Source of the DNA: Candidatus Nitronereus thalassa
Lineage (GTDB): Bacteria > Nitrospirota > Nitrospiria > Nitrospirales > UBA8639
Direction: 5' to 3'
Length of the DNA: 64,000 nt
Assembly: GCF_032191465.1 (NCBI RefSeq)
Contig: NZ_JAQOUE010000001.1
Coordinates: forward strand, 2,046,001 to 2,110,000
The first letter of the stretch is position 1, and each line of letters begins with the position of its first letter. The translations under genes and the position numbers were made by a program. The notes under the pieces are model-generated. The model ran no database searches. It was not told where the DNA came from and was given only the letters and a program-made list of their open reading frames with translations. Below are positions 25,074 through 35,389 of the stretch, piece after piece.

Positions 25074-26354
25074 ATGAGACATTTTTTCACGACATCTTTA
25101 AAGGTTTTCCGACATACCTTTTTGTTCACGATGGCCTGGCTGGGATTTCTCGTTCCACCTCTTCACGCCCAAGACAGACCCGTGAAAGAATTTTTTATGA
25201 CCGTGCAAGAAACGACGATTACGTTGTTGGAGGATCCTAAGAAAGAAGTGACGGTTTGGGCCTATGCGTTGAAAGGTGAACAGCCGTCAGTGCCCGGTCC
25301 GGTGATCCGAGTGAACCAGGGGGATTTGGTGAAGGTGCATTTTACCAACACGCATTCCCTTCCCCACACCCTGCACTTTCATGGAGTCCATCCATTTGCC
25401 ATGGATGGGAACGGGCAACGGTCTATGGGCCGCGAACAACTCCAGATGCCGGGAGAATCTTATACGTATGAATGGGTGGCCGAAGAGGCCGGGTTTTATT
25501 GGTATCATTGCCATTTCAATACGGCTCAGCATCTCGATCATGGAATGTATGGGCTGTTTATTGTCGAAGATCCCTACTGGCCCCCGGTCGATCGCGAAAT
25601 CCTGACGGTGTGGGATGAATGGGACACCGATGGTGATGGACGGTACGACACGCACACGATCAATTCTCGTTCGGCTCCCGACTTTCTTCCGTTGCAGGCG
25701 ACCACTGGTGAACGGGTACGAATCATTCTGGCGAACATCGGGTTCGAATTTCACACGCCCCACCTGCATGGTCAACGATGGGTGGAGATGAACCCGGGGA
25801 CCCTGGCTCGGCCCGGGTGGGATAATCCCAATGGCGTGGTGTCCATCGGACCCGCGGAAATCAAAATCGTCGAGTTCGAGGTGAAGCATACGGGCACGTG
25901 GTTATTTCACTGTCATGTGGTTCCCCATGTGGCAGATGATGGCAAATACCCACGTGGGATGCTGACCATGTTGAAGGTCACCGATCAAGTCACAATGCTT
26001 CACAGTGCCCCCGTTCTGAAAGACAGTGCTGAACGCAGCGAGGCTGCGCCTTCCCCGGAATCTTCTGTGGCCACCATTCCGGACTTCCAGCCTTTCGATT
26101 ATCCGACGGGGGTGGCGAATCGAGGCTATGACGTCTACAATACCCACTGCAAAGCCTGTCATGGAAATTTGGCCCAAGGTGAATATGGCCCAACACTCCG
26201 GCAAAATCAGATTCTTCACGACAACGACAAATTTTGGAAGACCGTGCTCAAAGGGAAAGGGAACATGCCGGCTTGGGAAAGCCGTCTGAGCAAGAATCAT
26301 ATCGCGGATGTCCAGGCTTACCTGAAAACACTTAAGCCTCCCCCACCGCCCTGA
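25074..26354 (+). CDS. Two-domain multicopper oxidase fused to a C-terminal cytochrome c
   Basis: 426 residues with a strong GGAGGGAG ribosome site and a signal peptide ending near LHAQD (residue 34). Two cupredoxin domains follow. The first has HTLHFHG (H98, H101, H103) and WYHCHFNTAQH (H145-C146-H147). The second has HTPHLHG (H227, H230, H232) and LFHCHVVPHVADDG (H279-C280-H281, H285), with an RGM nearby. Each thus carries blue-copper and bridging-copper ligands, as in two-domain multicopper oxidases. A linker leads to a monohaem cytochrome c with CKACH (359-363). It is exported and likely oxidises a substrate or reduces O2 or nitrite with electrons passed through its own haem. NirK-like activity cannot be excluded from sequence alone. 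Confidence 0.85.
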   Translation: MRHFFTTSLKVFRHTFLFTMAWLGFLVPPLHAQDRPVKEFFMTVQETTITLLEDPKKEVTVWAYALKGEQPSVPGPVIRVNQGDLVKVHFTNTHSLPHTLHFHGVHPFAMDGNGQRSMGREQLQMPGESYTYEWVAEEAGFYWYHCHFNTAQHLDHGMYGLFIVEDPYWPPVDREILTVWDEWDTDGDGRYDTHTINSRSAPDFLPLQATTGERVRIILANIGFEFHTPHLHGQRWVEMNPGTLARPGWDNPNGVVSIGPAEIKIVEFEVKHTGTWLFHCHVVPHVADDGKYPRGMLTMLKVTDQVTMLHSAPVLKDSAERSEAAPSPESSVATIPDFQPFDYPTGVANRGYDVYNTHCKACHGNLAQGEYGPTLRQNQILHDNDKFWKTVLKGKGNMPAWESRLSKNHIADVQAYLKTLKPPPPP

Positions 26355-28156: not shown

Positions 28157-29572
28157 ATGTCTGTTCAAAAAGGCACCAAAAACCATTTCTCCCTCGGATC
28201 TGGCCCCTTTGATATTCGGTACCCTGCGGCCAACAAGCGACTGAAATCCTGGACCGCGGTCAGGTTCCCGCGACGATTGCGCACATGGACCAGGTTGTCC
28301 CTCATGTTGTTTGTGGTGTTTGCCGGCCTCGTCGCTTTTGTTCCTTGGACACAGACCGTCACGGTCAAAGGCCAGCTGTCAGCCTATTCACCTGTTGAAC
28401 GACCCCAAGAGATTCATGCACAAATTAATGGTGCCATTCGAACATGGCATGTCAATGAAGGGATGACGGTTCGCAAAGGAGACTTGGTGCTGGAGCTCGA
28501 GGATGTGAATCCAAAGTTCCTCGCCCCGGATCTCTTGGAGCGCTTGGATCAATCCCGCGAAGCCCTGGCCCAACAACGTCAAGCAGCATTGGATCGCGCG
28601 GAAATCCTGGCCAAACGAATTGACGAAATGACCGGCTTGACCCGCGCCGCCACCACCTCAGCCGAAGCCAGGGTGTCGGAAAGTAGCAATAAAGTCCAAA
28701 GTATGGAGCAACGTTTGGCCGTTGCAAAAGTCGCTGAAGAAACCGCCGCCTTAAATCTAGAACGTTCACGGGTTCTTGAGGCCGAAGGGTTACTCTCACG
28801 ACGTGATTTGGAACTCGCCATTCAAGCCGCCACTGCCACACGCGCGGAATTAAAAGCTGCAGAGGCGGCCCTGCGGGAAGCGCAACAAGGCCGGCGGGCC
28901 CTAGCCTACAATCGTGAACAGATCGATGCGGAACTTAGTCAACGAGTGCTCGAAACCCGTTCACAACGGGCCTCCGCCCTTGCCGATGCCGCGAAAGCTG
29001 CGAAAGAATTAGCGGATTTGGAGTTAACCCGATCTACAGCACTGCAACGGCGTGTGGCTAGTCGCGTGACGGCCCCACTGGATGGCACCGTGGTTCGCTT
29101 GACCCGAATCGGACCAGGAGAAATCGTCAAACCCGGCGATCTGTTGTTCACGATCGTTCCAATAAGTGCCACACGCGCGGTGGAGATGTGGGCCGAGTCC
29201 ATTGATGCACCGCTCCTCACGCCGGGCCGTCCCGTCCGATTGCTTTTGCATGGCGTTCCGGCAATTCCGCTACCCGCCTGGCCGGAGTTAATGGCGGGAA
29301 CCTATGACGGATCCATTCAGGTGGTGGACCAATCGGCTTCGGCGAATGGTAAATTTCGTTTGTGGGTAGTCCCCGATACGACACGCCGACCGTGGCCCAC
29401 CCAAGATCAGGTGCGGCAAGGCACGCAGGTGATGGGCTGGGTGATTTTGAATCGAGTACCCCTGTGGTATGAAATGTGGCGTCGGTTTAATTTATTTCCG
29501 CCAGATTACGAATCAGGAGAAATCAACTTGTATGATGTCTTTTTGCCGAAAGCCGGACGACCGGGGAAATAA
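28157..29572 (+). CDS. HlyD-family periplasmic adaptor (membrane fusion protein)
   Basis: 471 residues. A basic N-terminal tail precedes one membrane span near residues 52-74 (LSLMLFVVFAGLVAFVPW). A biotinyl-lipoyl half (AQINGAIRTWHVNEGMTVRKGD) follows, then a long alpha-helical hairpin rich in Ala/Glu/Arg (about residues 125-300) and the second lipoyl half with VTAPLDGTVVRLTRIGPGEI. This is the architecture of type I secretion or efflux adaptors that bridge an inner-membrane transporter and a TolC-like channel. The channel and transporter genes follow directly. A cargo gene is not recognisable nearby. Confidence 0.85.
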   Translation: MSVQKGTKNHFSLGSGPFDIRYPAANKRLKSWTAVRFPRRLRTWTRLSLMLFVVFAGLVAFVPWTQTVTVKGQLSAYSPVERPQEIHAQINGAIRTWHVNEGMTVRKGDLVLELEDVNPKFLAPDLLERLDQSREALAQQRQAALDRAEILAKRIDEMTGLTRAATTSAEARVSESSNKVQSMEQRLAVAKVAEETAALNLERSRVLEAEGLLSRRDLELAIQAATATRAELKAAEAALREAQQGRRALAYNREQIDAELSQRVLETRSQRASALADAAKAAKELADLELTRSTALQRRVASRVTAPLDGTVVRLTRIGPGEIVKPGDLLFTIVPISATRAVEMWAESIDAPLLTPGRPVRLLLHGVPAIPLPAWPELMAGTYDGSIQVVDQSASANGKFRLWVVPDTTRRPWPTQDQVRQGTQVMGWVILNRVPLWYEMWRRFNLFPPDYESGEINLYDVFLPKAGRPGK

Positions 29573-29635
29573 ATCACACACCATCGCACAAACCCAATGC
29601 CAATACTTGCACAAACTCATAATAGGAGAGGAATC

Positions 29636-31090
29636 ATGTTGACCATAGTCCGAATAATAATTATCGGGTTGTTGATCGGATTGAGTGTCACACCAGTGCA
29701 GGCTGAAAATCCCACACGCGAACTTTCTGGGAAACAACCTTCATCCGTCCTCACCTTACAAGAGGTGTTGACGAAGGTTGAACAGGGACACCCGCTTCTC
29801 CAAAGTAGTCAAACGCAAAAAACTGTGGCGGCCGGAAAAGTGCTCAAAGCTCTCGGGGCCTTTGAACCGAACCTTGTGAACGATTGGGAATTAGAACGAC
29901 TGGTGAAGGATGGAAAGACCGTCAGTGTCGGTTTTAATGATACGTTCGTTGAAATGCGGCACCCTTGGGGGATTAAAGGGTTTGCCGGATTTCGTGCGGG
30001 TATCGGCGATGTAGAAATCGCGGATTTGGGTATCGAAAACTCAAATCAGCCGCTGTTAGGAATTGTCTTTCCTATGCTTCGTGGATTGATGACGAACCCC
30101 GCCCGAGCCGAATTGCAGAAGTCCAACTTGGCCGATAAACAAGCCGACCTTGAGATTCAACAGGCGCGGCAAGACTTATATCTTGGTGCGGCCACACAAT
30201 ATTGGAATTGGGTCGCCGCTGGAAAGTTTGTCGAGGTTCAAGAAAAAGCCGTCTCGGTAGCAGACGCCCGTTCTGCACAAACCATGAAACAGGCGGATGC
30301 AGGGGCAAGGGCGCAATTCGATGGCATTGAAGCCAACCAGGAAGTACAACGACGGCGAGATCTGTTGATCAAGGCCAGGCGTAAACTCGAGGAAGAGCAA
30401 TATCGACTCGCCTTATTTTTGTGGGAAGGCGACAATCCCGTGGTCCCGGCACAGATGATGGCCCCGGAGTTTCCACCTCTTGAGTCCACGCTAGATTCTG
30501 ACCAATTTAAACACGATCGCCAACAAGCAGCCACCGCTCGGCCTGAAGTCCGACTCGTCAATCTCGAAGCTGAGTTCAACCACATTGATTTGGATGTTGC
30601 GGAGAACAATTTTCTTCCCGATTTGACTGCGGAAGCCCAACCCACCAGAAAGCCCGGTGAGTTTGTGTTGGGGTTGGGCTATCGGTTTGGGGTGCAATTA
30701 AGTTTTCCGTTTCTTCAGCGCGGAGCACGCGGAGACCAAATGCAAATGGAAGCGAAAGCCCAACGCTTGAAATTATTGCAGCGCTATCGCATGCAGCAAG
30801 TGGCACTGGATGTCGACAATGCACAATCCGCCATTTCCCGTGCGCAGGAGCGCATTCAAGTCTCACAACAGGCGTTGCAATTGGCGCAGGAATTGGAAAA
30901 AGGCGAACGCACTCGCTTCAAATTGGGAGCAACCAGTTTGGTGTTTGTCAATCTTCGTGAGCGGCATGTGGTCCAAGCGGCTGAAGAATTAATTACTGCC
31001 CTAGCGGATTACCAAAAGGCCCTTGCGTTATATCAATGGGCGATCGGCGGGTGGGCCAACGGGCCATTCGCCGCAGAGGTAAACGGATGA
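29636..31090 (+). CDS. TolC-family outer-membrane channel protein
   Basis: 484 residues from ATG 29636, which has an AGGAGAGG ribosome site; an upstream in-frame ATG at 29597 is less likely. The signal peptide ends near TPVQAEN. The mature protein shows the TolC pattern: SVLTLQEVLTKVEQGHPLLQ at the start and two related helical halves with regularly spaced Ala, Gln and Glu (ADKQADLEIQQARQDLYLGA; DVDNAQSAISRAQERIQVSQ). It should form the outer-membrane duct for the adaptor encoded upstream. The gene order adaptor, channel, ABC protein implies one export machine. Confidence 0.85.
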   Translation: MLTIVRIIIIGLLIGLSVTPVQAENPTRELSGKQPSSVLTLQEVLTKVEQGHPLLQSSQTQKTVAAGKVLKALGAFEPNLVNDWELERLVKDGKTVSVGFNDTFVEMRHPWGIKGFAGFRAGIGDVEIADLGIENSNQPLLGIVFPMLRGLMTNPARAELQKSNLADKQADLEIQQARQDLYLGAATQYWNWVAAGKFVEVQEKAVSVADARSAQTMKQADAGARAQFDGIEANQEVQRRRDLLIKARRKLEEEQYRLALFLWEGDNPVVPAQMMAPEFPPLESTLDSDQFKHDRQQAATARPEVRLVNLEAEFNHIDLDVAENNFLPDLTAEAQPTRKPGEFVLGLGYRFGVQLSFPFLQRGARGDQMQMEAKAQRLKLLQRYRMQQVALDVDNAQSAISRAQERIQVSQQALQLAQELEKGERTRFKLGATSLVFVNLRERHVVQAAEELITALADYQKALALYQWAIGGWANGPFAAEVNG

Positions 31091-31106
31091 AGGGCATACC
31101 TTTCGT

Positions 31107-32756
31107 ATGAGTCAACATCTTCCTCTCCTTCGGGAGAATCTCGACCGCCTCGGCCTGTTCCTGAAACAGGAACGCTCCGTGTTATTAGCCATTCTGTCCT
31201 ATGCCGTGGTCGTCGGGGTCTTTTCTCTGATTATTCCGCTCACGGTCCAAGAATTGGTCAACACCTTCGCGTTTGCCGTTTCGCCCGTCATGGTGGTCAC
31301 TCTGGTCGGCATCATGGCCGTGATTCTTCTTTTTGTCAGCGTCTTTCGTGTGTTGCAGTTTTACGCAACCGATATTCTCGAGCGTCGAGTCTTTGTTCGA
31401 GTCGCGTTGGCTCTCGCCCAAATCTTGCCACGTTTTAAAGAAGATTCCTTTCACACCGACTCCATCAGCCGTTTTTTTGAAACCATTTTTATGCAGCGGG
31501 CTCTTGCCAATCTCTTTGTCGATTTTACGAACGTCTTTATTGGTGGATTCATCGGCATGGTCTTGCTGGCCCTCTATCATCCGTATTTCCTCATATTCGA
31601 TGTCATTTTAATCGGGGCAACGTTTCTCATTTTTGCGTTGGGAAAGGGAGGGCTTCGGACCACGCTGCACATGTCCGATGCGAAATATGATGCCTTCCAT
31701 TGGTTTCAGGAAGTGGCCGACAATTTGTTGCATTTTAAAACTACTCGTTGTTTGGATTTGGTCGTTGAGAAAGCCGATAACTTAGCCACGGCCTATGTGC
31801 AGGCACGCAAAAGTCGATTTCGTGTGTTGCTCCGTCAATACATTGGATCTCTGTCGATTCAGGTCATCCTTCACACCGGGCTATTGGGAACGGCTGGTTG
31901 GCTTCTCAGCAAGGGCGAGTTAACGTTGGGACAATTGGTTGCAGCAGAGGTTATTGTGGCCAGTCTCTTGCTCAATCTCGAGTCCGTCGTGAAACGCCTC
32001 TATCTCGTGTATTATTTTTTTACAGCCCTCACGGAACTTGACCATTTGTTTTCCCTCCCTCAAGACCGTGCAACGACAGATTCCGCTGATTTTTCAATTC
32101 CCCAATCCGGCGCTCAAGGAGTGCATCTGGCGTGTAGTGGTATTCGTCTCACCAGTGCCTGGTGGTCGATCCCCAAGGATGTTAATTTTGAAGCGCTTCC
32201 TGGCGAAAAATGCGCGCTGATTTGTGGAACGGAATCAACGCGTCATGGCATATCCTTGGTAATCGCGGGATTACAGCCACCATCAACCGGAGTGGTTCGC
32301 TATAACGGCATTGATGTCCGAAATGTCTCTCTTGACGAGGTCAACGAACTTCGAGGTATCGTCTTCGGCCGGGATCTCAGATTGTTTGAAGGCACTATGG
32401 CTGACAATATCACCATGGGGCGAAGCGGCATCGAATCTGAAGATCTGTTGTGGGCATTAAACGTGGTGCAGCTGAATCAAGAAATTGATGAGCTACCCGA
32501 TGGGCTGCAGACGAACATTAAGGAAGGTGGTCGGGATTTCACGCCCAGTCAACAATTGCGGATTTTATTAGCTCGGGCCATTATCACCCGTCCATCGCTT
32601 CTGATATTAGACGGCGCCTTGCATGAAATTCCTAGCCATATTCGAGAAACGATTTTTCGCCATCTTTGCTCCAGGGAAGTTCCGTGGACTCTGGTGGTCG
32701 TGACCACAGATTCGACCGTCCGCACACTTGTGCATAAGTGCTTTACCCTCTCGTAA
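31107..32756 (+). CDS. ABC exporter-like protein with a catalytically degenerate ATPase domain
   Basis: 549 residues. The N-terminal half (about 20-310) is an ABC exporter membrane domain with five to six spans. The C-terminal half has the outline of a nucleotide-binding domain but every active motif is altered. Walker A reads CGTESTRHG, without the GK[ST]. The signature reads FTPSQQ instead of LSGGQ. Walker B is LLILDG, with glycine for the catalytic glutamate. The switch histidine is missing (VVVTTDS). The frame is intact and the surrounding residues are conserved, so the protein seems maintained but unlikely to hydrolyse ATP. It follows the TolC-like gene by 16 bases. It may scaffold the channel or pair with an ATPase encoded elsewhere. 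Confidence 0.82.
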   Translation: MSQHLPLLRENLDRLGLFLKQERSVLLAILSYAVVVGVFSLIIPLTVQELVNTFAFAVSPVMVVTLVGIMAVILLFVSVFRVLQFYATDILERRVFVRVALALAQILPRFKEDSFHTDSISRFFETIFMQRALANLFVDFTNVFIGGFIGMVLLALYHPYFLIFDVILIGATFLIFALGKGGLRTTLHMSDAKYDAFHWFQEVADNLLHFKTTRCLDLVVEKADNLATAYVQARKSRFRVLLRQYIGSLSIQVILHTGLLGTAGWLLSKGELTLGQLVAAEVIVASLLLNLESVVKRLYLVYYFFTALTELDHLFSLPQDRATTDSADFSIPQSGAQGVHLACSGIRLTSAWWSIPKDVNFEALPGEKCALICGTESTRHGISLVIAGLQPPSTGVVRYNGIDVRNVSLDEVNELRGIVFGRDLRLFEGTMADNITMGRSGIESEDLLWALNVVQLNQEIDELPDGLQTNIKEGGRDFTPSQQLRILLARAIITRPSLLILDGALHEIPSHIRETIFRHLCSREVPWTLVVVTTDSTVRTLVHKCFTLS

Positions 32757-32890
32757 TTATTGATGTTGAGAAATACAACGGGGAAATGGATGTTGTTGGA
32801 GTCAAACAGCATAGGGGAACATGGGCTTTCCTGTCTCAGGTATTCGCATTATTTTTTCCTTTCGCAATCCTCTACGGTAAAATTATTATA

Positions 32891-34228
32891 ATGAGTAATT
32901 TACTTGCCGCTCGATCCCTCATGGCCATGTCCCTGGGTTTCCATATTATATTCGCCATCATTGGAATGGCCATGCCACTCATGATGGTGATTGCTGAATG
33001 GCGCTGGCTGAAAACCGGGGACGAGGTATACCTCACCATTGCCAAACGTTGGGCCAAAGGCACTGCCATTTTCTTTGCAGTGGGCGCGGTAACGGGAACT
33101 GTGTTGTCATTTCAGCTTGGCTTACTATGGCCAAAATTTATGGAATTCGCGGGTCCAATTATTGGGCTCGCTTTTTCCATTGAAGGATTTGCGTTTTTCA
33201 CAGAAGCCATCTTTCTCGGTATCTATCTTTACGGATGGAGAAAGGTCAGTCCGCATGCGCATCTTGCAGCTGGAGGAGTCGTCGCGCTGAGTGGCATTAC
33301 ATCCGGTGTTGTTGTGGTCCTGGCCAATGGCTGGATGAACACGCCGCGGGGTTTTACGATGATCAATGGCCTTCCCGCGAACATCGACCCCATTGCCGCA
33401 TTGCTGAATCCTTCAGGGGGCCTTCAGGCCTTGCATATGATTACAGCGGCCTTCGCAGCCACGGGTTTTGCGGTCGCTGGCATTCATGCATTTCTGCTTC
33501 TTCGCCATCCTGGTAATGCCTTTCATCAAGGGGCTCTAAAAATCGCGTTGGCCGTGGGCTGTGTTAGCGCATTGTTTCAACCATTGAATGGTGACTTCCT
33601 GGCCAAACAAGTGGCTGAATATCAACCCCTAAAACTCGCAGCCTTTGAAGGCCAAGTACACACGCAAAAGGGTGCGCCATTTCGACTCGGCGGGATTTGG
33701 AATTCTGAAAAAGAAGCCTTCGACTATATTGTCGAAATTCCATATGCCTTGAGCCTGATGTTACACATGGACCCTCATGGCGAGGTGATAGGGATCAAGG
33801 AATTTGCCAAGGAAATCTGGCCTCCCATCGGGGTGGTGCGTACGGCCTTTCAAATTATGGTGGGCATTGGCTTTTTCATGATGGGGATGGCTGTGTGGGC
33901 GGCATGGTTGGCCTTCAAAACACGAACTCTATTCCAATCGAAATTATTTTTAAAGGCGTTGGTGTTGTCGATACCGCTTGGCTTTATTGCGACGGAAGTC
34001 GGTTGGGTGGCAACAGAGGTGGGACGGCAACCCTGGGTGGTGGTGGGGTATTTAAAGACTGCCCAAGCAGTGACTCCCATGCCAGGGATTTCCGTTTCGC
34101 TGATTTTCTTCGCGGGATTGTACGCTTTCCTCGCCGCTATCGTCATCTGGCTAATGTGGCGTCATGTTACGGCCACACCCACCCAATTTGAAATGCAAAT
34201 GAAGGGAAGCGCGCATGATCGGATATGA
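32891..34228 (+). CDS. cydA: Cytochrome bd-type quinol oxidase subunit I
   Basis: 445 residues from ATG 32891; the longer frame from 32738 runs through likely promoter sequence. Nine hydrophobic segments are expected. The start SLMAMSLGFHIIFAIIGMAM contains the high-spin haem histidine, and GRQPWVVVGYLKTAQAVTP is the signature block after the quinol-binding loop. The short length fits the short-Q-loop or cyanide-insensitive type. It oxidises quinol and reduces oxygen with high affinity in the inner membrane. The cydB start overlaps its end by 14 bases. The upstream 134 bases separate it from the ABC gene and probably hold a promoter. Confidence 0.92.
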   Translation: MSNLLAARSLMAMSLGFHIIFAIIGMAMPLMMVIAEWRWLKTGDEVYLTIAKRWAKGTAIFFAVGAVTGTVLSFQLGLLWPKFMEFAGPIIGLAFSIEGFAFFTEAIFLGIYLYGWRKVSPHAHLAAGGVVALSGITSGVVVVLANGWMNTPRGFTMINGLPANIDPIAALLNPSGGLQALHMITAAFAATGFAVAGIHAFLLLRHPGNAFHQGALKIALAVGCVSALFQPLNGDFLAKQVAEYQPLKLAAFEGQVHTQKGAPFRLGGIWNSEKEAFDYIVEIPYALSLMLHMDPHGEVIGIKEFAKEIWPPIGVVRTAFQIMVGIGFFMMGMAVWAAWLAFKTRTLFQSKLFLKALVLSIPLGFIATEVGWVATEVGRQPWVVVGYLKTAQAVTPMPGISVSLIFFAGLYAFLAAIVIWLMWRHVTATPTQFEMQMKGSAHDRI

Positions 34229-35243
34229 AACGATCCTGGGGATCGTCCTACTTCTCGCGCTCACGTTTTATGCTCTCATGGGTGGTGCCGACTTCGGTGC
34301 CGGTGTGTGGCACCTCCTCGCGAGGGGAAAAACTCGACGGAATCAACACCAGTTAATCGGCGAGGCCATCGGCCCGATTTGGGAAGCCAATCACGTGTGG
34401 TTAATTTTGGTCGTCACGATTTTATTTACGGCCTTTCCCCCAGCCTATGCACAGGTGTCCATTACGCTTCACATCCCGCTGACCCTTCTGGTGATTGGGA
34501 TTGTTCTTCGAGGGTCAGCCTATGCCTTTCGACATTACGACGTGAAAGATGATGACGTTCATTTACGGTGGGATCAAATTTTCGCGCTCTCCAGCCTGAT
34601 TAGTCCTCTGCTGCTCGGCATTATTCTCGGCTCAGTGACGGCCGGCAATTTTCCTGTGAAGCCTGAGAGTTTTTTTGAAGGGTTCGTGGCTCCTTGGATC
34701 CAGCCGTTTCCACTGGTGATGGGTGTATTCACATTGGTGCTGTTTGCCTATTTGGCGGCCTCTTATCTTCTTTTGGAAACACAGGACCTGGAACTTCAGG
34801 AACTTTTTAGAAAACGGGCCATCGCCTCGGTGTTAATAGCCGGCGTCTTAGAAGAGCTGGTCATGCTACTCGGAAAAACTGGAGCCCCCCGTTTGTGGGG
34901 AGAATTGACGAACAGCCTATGGGGAGGTTTTCTTCAAATAGGCATGGGAAGTCTGACATTGGTAGCGATCGCGTTGTTAGTCACCCGACGATATTGGTGG
35001 GCAAGGACCTGCGCGATTGTTCAAGTTACGATTACAATTTTGGCGTGGGGCATTGCGCAATCTCCCTATTTAGTACCCCCTTATCTTACAATCTTCAATG
35101 CCTCATCACCGGAAGTTATGCTACGCCTTATTGTCATCGCGCTATTCACCGGCGCGCTGTTATTATTTCCATCACTGTTGTACCTATTCAAAATATTTAA
35201 AGGTGGAACGTTATTTGGAGTTCCGAAGAAATCGGATGGATAA
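34215..35243 (+). CDS. cydB: Cytochrome bd-type quinol oxidase subunit II
   Basis: 342 residues, eight to nine membrane spans. The N-terminal block LTFYALMGGADFGAGVWHLL and GPIWEANHVWLILVVTILFTAFP are the best conserved parts of CydB. It has no haem-binding core of its own but stabilises subunit I. ATG 34215 lies inside the end of cydA with AAGGGAAG upstream, so translation is coupled. No small CydX-like gene is apparent in the 80 bases after it. Confidence 0.92.
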   Translation: MIGYETILGIVLLLALTFYALMGGADFGAGVWHLLARGKTRRNQHQLIGEAIGPIWEANHVWLILVVTILFTAFPPAYAQVSITLHIPLTLLVIGIVLRGSAYAFRHYDVKDDDVHLRWDQIFALSSLISPLLLGIILGSVTAGNFPVKPESFFEGFVAPWIQPFPLVMGVFTLVLFAYLAASYLLLETQDLELQELFRKRAIASVLIAGVLEELVMLLGKTGAPRLWGELTNSLWGGFLQIGMGSLTLVAIALLVTRRYWWARTCAIVQVTITILAWGIAQSPYLVPPYLTIFNASSPEVMLRLIVIALFTGALLLFPSLLYLFKIFKGGTLFGVPKKSDG

Positions 35244-35389
35244 GTGCCCACAAATTAACGCAACACCCCTTTTATTGTATTGATAATGTTGGGATTGACA
35301 GATAAATTACCCGTGCTCATATTTTGAGTGCCAAGAATTTGTTTTATAGAGAATGGGAAGTGTTTAATAGATTTCCGAAACTCCCCAAA

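Follow-up and report, generated by a model that had tools for sequence, protein, structure and literature searches.

We describe a tripartite operon of Candidatus Nitronereus thalassa whose ABC exporter-type protein combines an intact membrane domain with a nucleotide-binding domain (NBD) that has lost nearly all of its catalytic residues, and which belongs to a family that reaches across three phyla. With a probability of about 0.6, we read this operon as encoding an exporter that has given up ATP hydrolysis, in which a putative homodimer of the pseudo-ABC protein, presumably driven by an ion gradient, would send a small molecule or peptide through a HlyD-type adaptor and a TolC-type channel.

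The window, by which we mean the whole 64,000-nucleotide stretch of DNA analysed, comes from a 4.0-Mb Nitrospirales genome, which has MAGs of the same order, such as NPIRA02 and NPIRA04, as its named close relatives. Adaptor, channel and ABC protein are encoded in one operon, as the initial annotation had proposed from the letters alone: the three genes follow one another in the same orientation on the + strand at 28157-32756 (Table 1), separated by gaps of 24 bp (HlyD/TolC) and 16 bp (TolC/ABC). None of the three open reading frames has an internal stop, and the ABC frame is intact over the 549 residues that had been claimed for it. Pfam matches identify the first two products, the channel also matches TIGR01844 (45 bits), and the adaptor is present in a single copy in the genome, with no paralogue.

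Table 1 Features of the operon in the window (positions are those of the window).
Feature	Position	Strand	Basis or remark
HlyD-family periplasmic adaptor, 471 aa	28157..29572	+	HlyD_3 (Pfam 3e-12) / Biotin_lipoyl_2
TolC-family outer-membrane channel, 497 aa	29597..31090	+	OEP Pfam 1.6e-27
Pseudo-ABC exporter, 549 aa: intact type-IV/T1SS membrane domain and catalytically dead NBD	31107..32756	+	
Transmembrane domain, residues 1-330, six long helices	31107..32096	+	AF2 model; sole part left in NBD-less relatives
Intracellular loop 2 / coupling helix 2, residues 196-225	31692..31781	+	Conserved with NBD, eroded without NBD
Glu281, TM6	31947..31949	+	19/20 representatives, three phyla
Degenerate Walker A GTESTRHGIS, residues 374-383	32226..32255	+	
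Degenerate signature FTPSQ (for LSGGQ), residues 478-482	32538..32552	+	
Walker B LLILDG, residues 498-503: Asp kept, catalytic Glu replaced by Gly	32598..32615	+	
Switch His replaced by Thr534	32706..32708	+	

Genes for cytochrome bd oxidase subunits I and II occupy 32888-35243 of the window, starting 131 bp after the ABC gene, and cytochrome bd genes also lie some kilobases from the operon in three other genomes (G009, G017 and G020). On the other side, 25074-26354 encodes a multicopper oxidase with a fused C-terminal cytochrome c domain, nitrite-reductase-like. A CydDC-like link to cytochrome bd biogenesis, suggested by the adjoining bd genes and by a match to the CydC model, was rejected: the match covers the NBD only and reaches 94 bits against a cut-off of 329, the best full-length matches of the protein are to models of type I secretion (T1SS)/NHLM exporters, and the neighbouring genes differ in relatives.

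Compared with 35 canonical exporters, the window protein has lost the lysine of Walker A (where GxSGSGKST is expected), the glutamine of the Q-loop (Gly/Arg, in VFGRD), the LSGGQ signature, the catalytic glutamate that follows the Walker B aspartate (D502-G503) and the switch histidine (T534, followed by D535 where canonical exporters have arginine); its match to the ABC_tran Pfam model is weak (3e-6, 28.3 bits, cut-off 25 bits). The initial annotation had held that all catalytic motifs are gone, which is right for these five but not for the Walker B aspartate, which is kept (LLILD). All complete Nitrospirales homologues examined share the same substitutions, and in an alignment of 73 homologous rows (partial copies included) each row that spans the sites lacks both the catalytic glutamate, replaced by glycine, and the switch histidine. 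Independent assemblies carry the same substitutions, which excludes a sequencing error, and no homologue with canonical motifs was found in the same operon in the set searched. Relative to canonical exporters, the replaced positions G503, H506 and D535 are nearly invariant among homologues; N400, R416, R439, D446, W449 and W527 are new near-invariant positions of the NBD, and R513 is also among its family-specific invariant residues.

A profile built from 14 homologues detects the family in 154 of the 242 genomes of the class, and among the matches listed from a phylum-wide sample of 396 genomes all fall in two families of one order. The HlyD, TolC and ABC genes occur all-or-none, the identical 25 of 60 related genomes holding all three. 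Pairwise dN/dS has a median of 0.075 in the membrane domain and 0.092 in the NBD; as judged from these ratios, both domains are under purifying selection. A maintained pseudo-ATPase exporter, as had been suggested, is therefore supported by the conserved substitutions, by the selection acting on the NBD and by the lack of any canonical member in the searched set. All representatives form one clade (SH-aLRT 100) in both full-length and membrane-domain-only trees, which are quick trees with long stems and an uncertain exact root. Broken copies are occasional: in one (G085, L160:6568-8269) the frame breaks where the membrane domain passes into the NBD, and another (G193:C220:10129-10839) is a remnant with two stops.

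The operon and its surroundings vary among these genomes. Several genera of Nitrospiraceae have tandem second ABC copies, which are equally dead. Directly after the ABC gene, Nitrospiraceae operons carry an extra gene for a two-TM protein with a periplasmic four-helix bundle (4HB_MCP_1) and no signalling output (L056:8755-9546; homologues in L051-L055 and L159-L161); a 246-aa ORF at 35324 of the window was considered as a homologue of this accessory protein and dropped, there being no BLAST match. In one Nitrospira lineage (L057:4452-9200) the dead ABC gene is preceded by three TolC-family genes in tandem, and glutamine stands in for the TM6 glutamate. Orphan dead ABC paralogues without HlyD and TolC also occur in Nitrospira (L060, L061 and L062), with histidine-kinase-like genes nearby in L060 and L062. 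Genes for DabA (PF10070)/proton-antiporter-like inorganic-carbon pumps adjoin the operon in several Nitrospirales genomes, and a Sphingobium plasmid has a DabA (DUF2309) gene 43 bp upstream of its ABC gene; the loci concerned are L058, L059 and L158 (downstream of the NBD-less gene), L043 (upstream of HlyD) and L165 (1362-3914), the DabA assignment being Pfam-confirmed in L058 only. A functional link between such pump genes and the operon is possible. Several operons of Nitrospirota, Bacteroidota and sphingomonads have LysR regulators beside them; from one phylum to another these are no more than distant relatives, and they fit small-molecule export weakly.

Beyond Nitrospirota, we queried 72,556 plasmids first with the whole protein and afterwards with only its membrane domain. 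The latter query matched 22 plasmid records, all of them Sphingomonadales or Bacteroidota relatives (Persicobacter, Aureibacter, Riemerella), and not one canonical ABC transporter among the 72,556. This cross-phylum survey consists of plasmid records, with some unannotated relatives read for the ABC gene alone or left unread; the ABC, HlyD and TolC genes are adjacent in 8/8 annotated operons read. In Novosphingobium aromaticivorans DSM 12444 the operon is carried by pNL2. All NBDs read outside Nitrospirota are degenerate, in different ways per lineage, that of Riemerella keeping the P-loop and a glutamate and lacking the Walker B aspartate, the signature and the histidine. Whereas the HlyD proteins of the three phyla match mutually with E values of 1e-61 to 1e-29, a T1SS adaptor from Azospirillum matches that of the window at only 1e-5. 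In a membrane-domain tree, a branch with SH-aLRT 100 sets all 20 representatives apart from the rest, and positions Y32, R98, H158, S190, W199, Q244 and Glu281 are among those common across phyla. On sequence grounds, the common descent of the family over three phyla is shown.

In three Nitrospirales genomes of one genus (G024, G021 and G220, with homologues L031, L032 and L158) the NBD is missing altogether. Their gene comes to a clean stop just past the membrane domain, with 337-346 aa encoded, and a search of G220 at E<=1e-15 recovered no dead NBD standing by itself. The three members form one clade in a quick tree, and a single deletion therefore accounts for them. In the TM helices they share 67-80% identity with NBD-bearing kin, but loop 2 with coupling helix 2 carries a small deletion and reaches 35% identity, against 62-68% between NBD-bearing kin. 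The HlyD and TolC proteins of G024 and G021 are 68-77% identical to those of the window, and an NBD-less pair gives a dN/dS of about 0.27 (0.12/0.45), which remains in the purifying range. In type IV exporters, coupling helix 2 docks on the NBD of the partner. Conserved TM helices next to an eroded coupling helix 2 thus suggest that the membrane domain works without ATP hydrolysis and not through an ATP-driven partner. The family displays graded states, from a P-loop remnant to a fully dead NBD to an NBD deleted with its docking helix eroded.

With no complete catalytic site found and one clade that, judging by selection, functions without an NBD, we infer, strongly, that the family as a whole cannot run on ATP hydrolysis; of the two options that the initial annotation had left, work without ATP hydrolysis is the one we favour. 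Something other than ATP hydrolysis must then power or gate such a pump.

The predicted fold is that of an ABC exporter. In PDB searches the full-length AF2 model (mean pLDDT 77.7), in which the NBD is modelled as folded, matches ABC exporters over 549 residues; the model of an NBD-less member (mean pLDDT 67) shows six long helices, and its top alignments by TM-score are to ComA, HlyB and PCAT1. These models bear on fold and not on mechanism. Together with the membrane-domain fold that they predict, of the type IV ABC exporter kind, the presence of a HlyD-type adaptor and a TolC-like channel in one operon and the best full-length model matches liken the system to T1SS (HlyB / LssB / PrtD; TIGR03375, TIGR01846), and a Persicobacter relative aligns from position 60 of the LssB model, inside the N-terminal domain region. 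It differs from T1SS in its apparent lack of a functional ATP-hydrolysing NBD, in the absence of an N-terminal peptidase-like domain from the window protein and in a TIGR03375 score of 112.7 bits against a curated cut-off of 693.1; neither an RTX-type substrate gene nor one for a protein with a C-terminal secretion signal was noticed beside the operon, in the window or in the neighbourhoods read.

Precedents exist for ABC exporter-type membrane domains that transport on their own. SbmA works without an NBD and is proton-coupled, with coupling helices lost and a conserved glutamate (PMC13316013). SbmA/BacA proteins (SLiPT) resemble the family described here in their ABC-exporter-type membrane domain and, as far as the NBD-less members are concerned, in the lost coupling helix. 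However, SLiPTs are importers with a TM0 domain, descended from YddA, whereas the window family belongs to a HlyD-TolC export operon; SbmA has a six-residue glutamate ladder where this family has a single family-wide carboxylate; and the window protein keeps both its NBD and a conserved coupling helix 2, the loss of both being confined to the G024/G021/G220 clade. The SbmA/BacA model PF05992 matches neither the window protein nor L165, L163, L170 or the NBD-less L031. The membrane domains LmrA-MD (PMC2704374, PMC6155054) and MsbA-MD (PMC4979069) carry out proton-coupled transport without an NBD, but they are laboratory truncations and thus artificial constructs. An ABC-HlyD-OMP operon of the sphingomonad Blastomonas fulva, HlyBD2-OMP2, with genes 48-58% similar to those of Novosphingobium aromaticivorans, is described as an ordinary ABC-type pump, motif loss going unmentioned in the accessible excerpt of that source (PMC9505733); judged by its description, it probably belongs to the same family. 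A HlyD-TolC system with an ATP-dead ABC exporter was not found in our literature search. The earlier remark that no named system is like this one therefore stands for the operon as a whole, undescribed in the literature searched, but not for the idea, which SbmA/BacA, LmrA-MD and MsbA-MD anticipate.

Glu281 in TM6 is the main candidate coupling residue. It is the only carboxylate conserved family-wide (Table 1), Nitrospirota adding E49 and D139, and canonical T1SS relatives have Asn/Gln in its place; one Nitrospiraceae clade (L026-L030) has Gln. Equating it with E314 of LmrA was tried and dropped for a misfit in spacing (E314 lies 74 and Glu281 about 99 residues before the position of the Walker A lysine), and the two are probably not equivalent.

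Given the precedents of LmrA-MD, MsbA-MD and SbmA, and with ATP hydrolysis seemingly not the general source, we favour ion-driven export. The system would descend from a type I secretion/HlyB-LssB-like exporter, an inner-membrane homodimer of the pseudo-ABC protein forming an export pump with the HlyD adaptor and TolC as exit duct. Transport would be carried out by the membrane domain, energized by an ion gradient, most likely of protons, acting on carboxylates such as Glu281. The dead NBD would remain docked in most members, serving structure or regulation; one clade has deleted it and yet kept the system. The broader proposal, of an unrecognised cross-phylum tripartite exporter family in which a naturally ATP-dead ABC motor has turned into an ion-driven secondary transporter with living intermediates, strikes us as having even odds.

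The pseudo-ABC protein may instead be a gated conduit, a sensor or a platform for HlyD-TolC assembly, with export passive or driven by another inner-membrane protein. The sensor-like 4HB_MCP_1 domain encoded in Nitrospiraceae operons and the orphan copies near histidine-kinase-like genes would suit such a role, and ion drive of the pseudo-ABC protein is something that we infer. We nevertheless consider such a role unlikely, as the operon has no other conserved transporter in the neighbourhoods read, and the strong conservation of the whole membrane domain, including the TM6 glutamate, fits transport.

Quite improbable, in our view, is continued gating by nucleotide, in which ATP would be bound but not cleaved by the NBDs, or cleaved through unusual chemistry, and would so drive or license transport. 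Many Nitrospiraceae copies keep a P-loop-like GKT/AKT, and pieces of the kind GKT, GKS and GKN are kept in Nitrospiraceae and Bacteroidota members, among them Persicobacter and Riemerella, so nucleotide binding may still matter there; the family-specific invariant NBD positions given above and the low dN/dS of the NBD are in keeping with it. In the window's own family, however, the Walker A lysine is gone along with Q-loop, signature, glutamate and histidine, and three relatives dispense with the NBD entirely.

Heterodimers in which one of the sites is degenerate are well known (TAP, TM287/288, TmrAB; PMC7756269), and the initial annotation had raised dimerization with another half-transporter as its second option, here a canonical one encoded elsewhere. 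Those exporters share degenerate NBD motifs with the window protein but keep one catalytic site, whereas none was found here and the operon holds no partner. The window genome has one family member; the five other ABC exporters found in it with the window protein are MsbA-like and canonical, at 21-30% identity, one of them, beside lpxB, passing the MsbA cut-off. An active second half-transporter was found neither in cis nor as a T1SS paralogue in this genome, and the adaptor, too, stands alone. The tandem copies of Nitrospiraceae are dead as well, both half-sites lack the glutamate and the histidine, and coupling helix 2, which would contact the NBD of a partner, is eroded in NBD-less members. 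We thus disfavour a heterodimer as very improbable. Decay of the gene has next to no chance, despite the isolated remnants in G193 and G085: with the same substitutions in every complete homologue, intact frames, a median omega of about 0.09 in the NBD and the whole operon kept in 25/60 genomes, it is refuted for the family as far as sequence can tell.

The question of whether an ABC exporter's membrane domain transports unaided has so far been judged from truncated LmrA and MsbA constructs and from SbmA. If ion-driven export by the pseudo-ABC protein is true, a natural family, its export operon intact and its dead NBD kept by most members but wholly lost in one clade, would open the transition from ATP-driven to ion-driven transport to direct test, and HlyD-TolC ducts would prove able to function with an ABC fold in which no ATP is consumed. 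In Nitrospirota, Bacteroidota and Sphingomonadales, genes that carry the label 'ABC transporter ATP-binding protein' may not encode ATPases.
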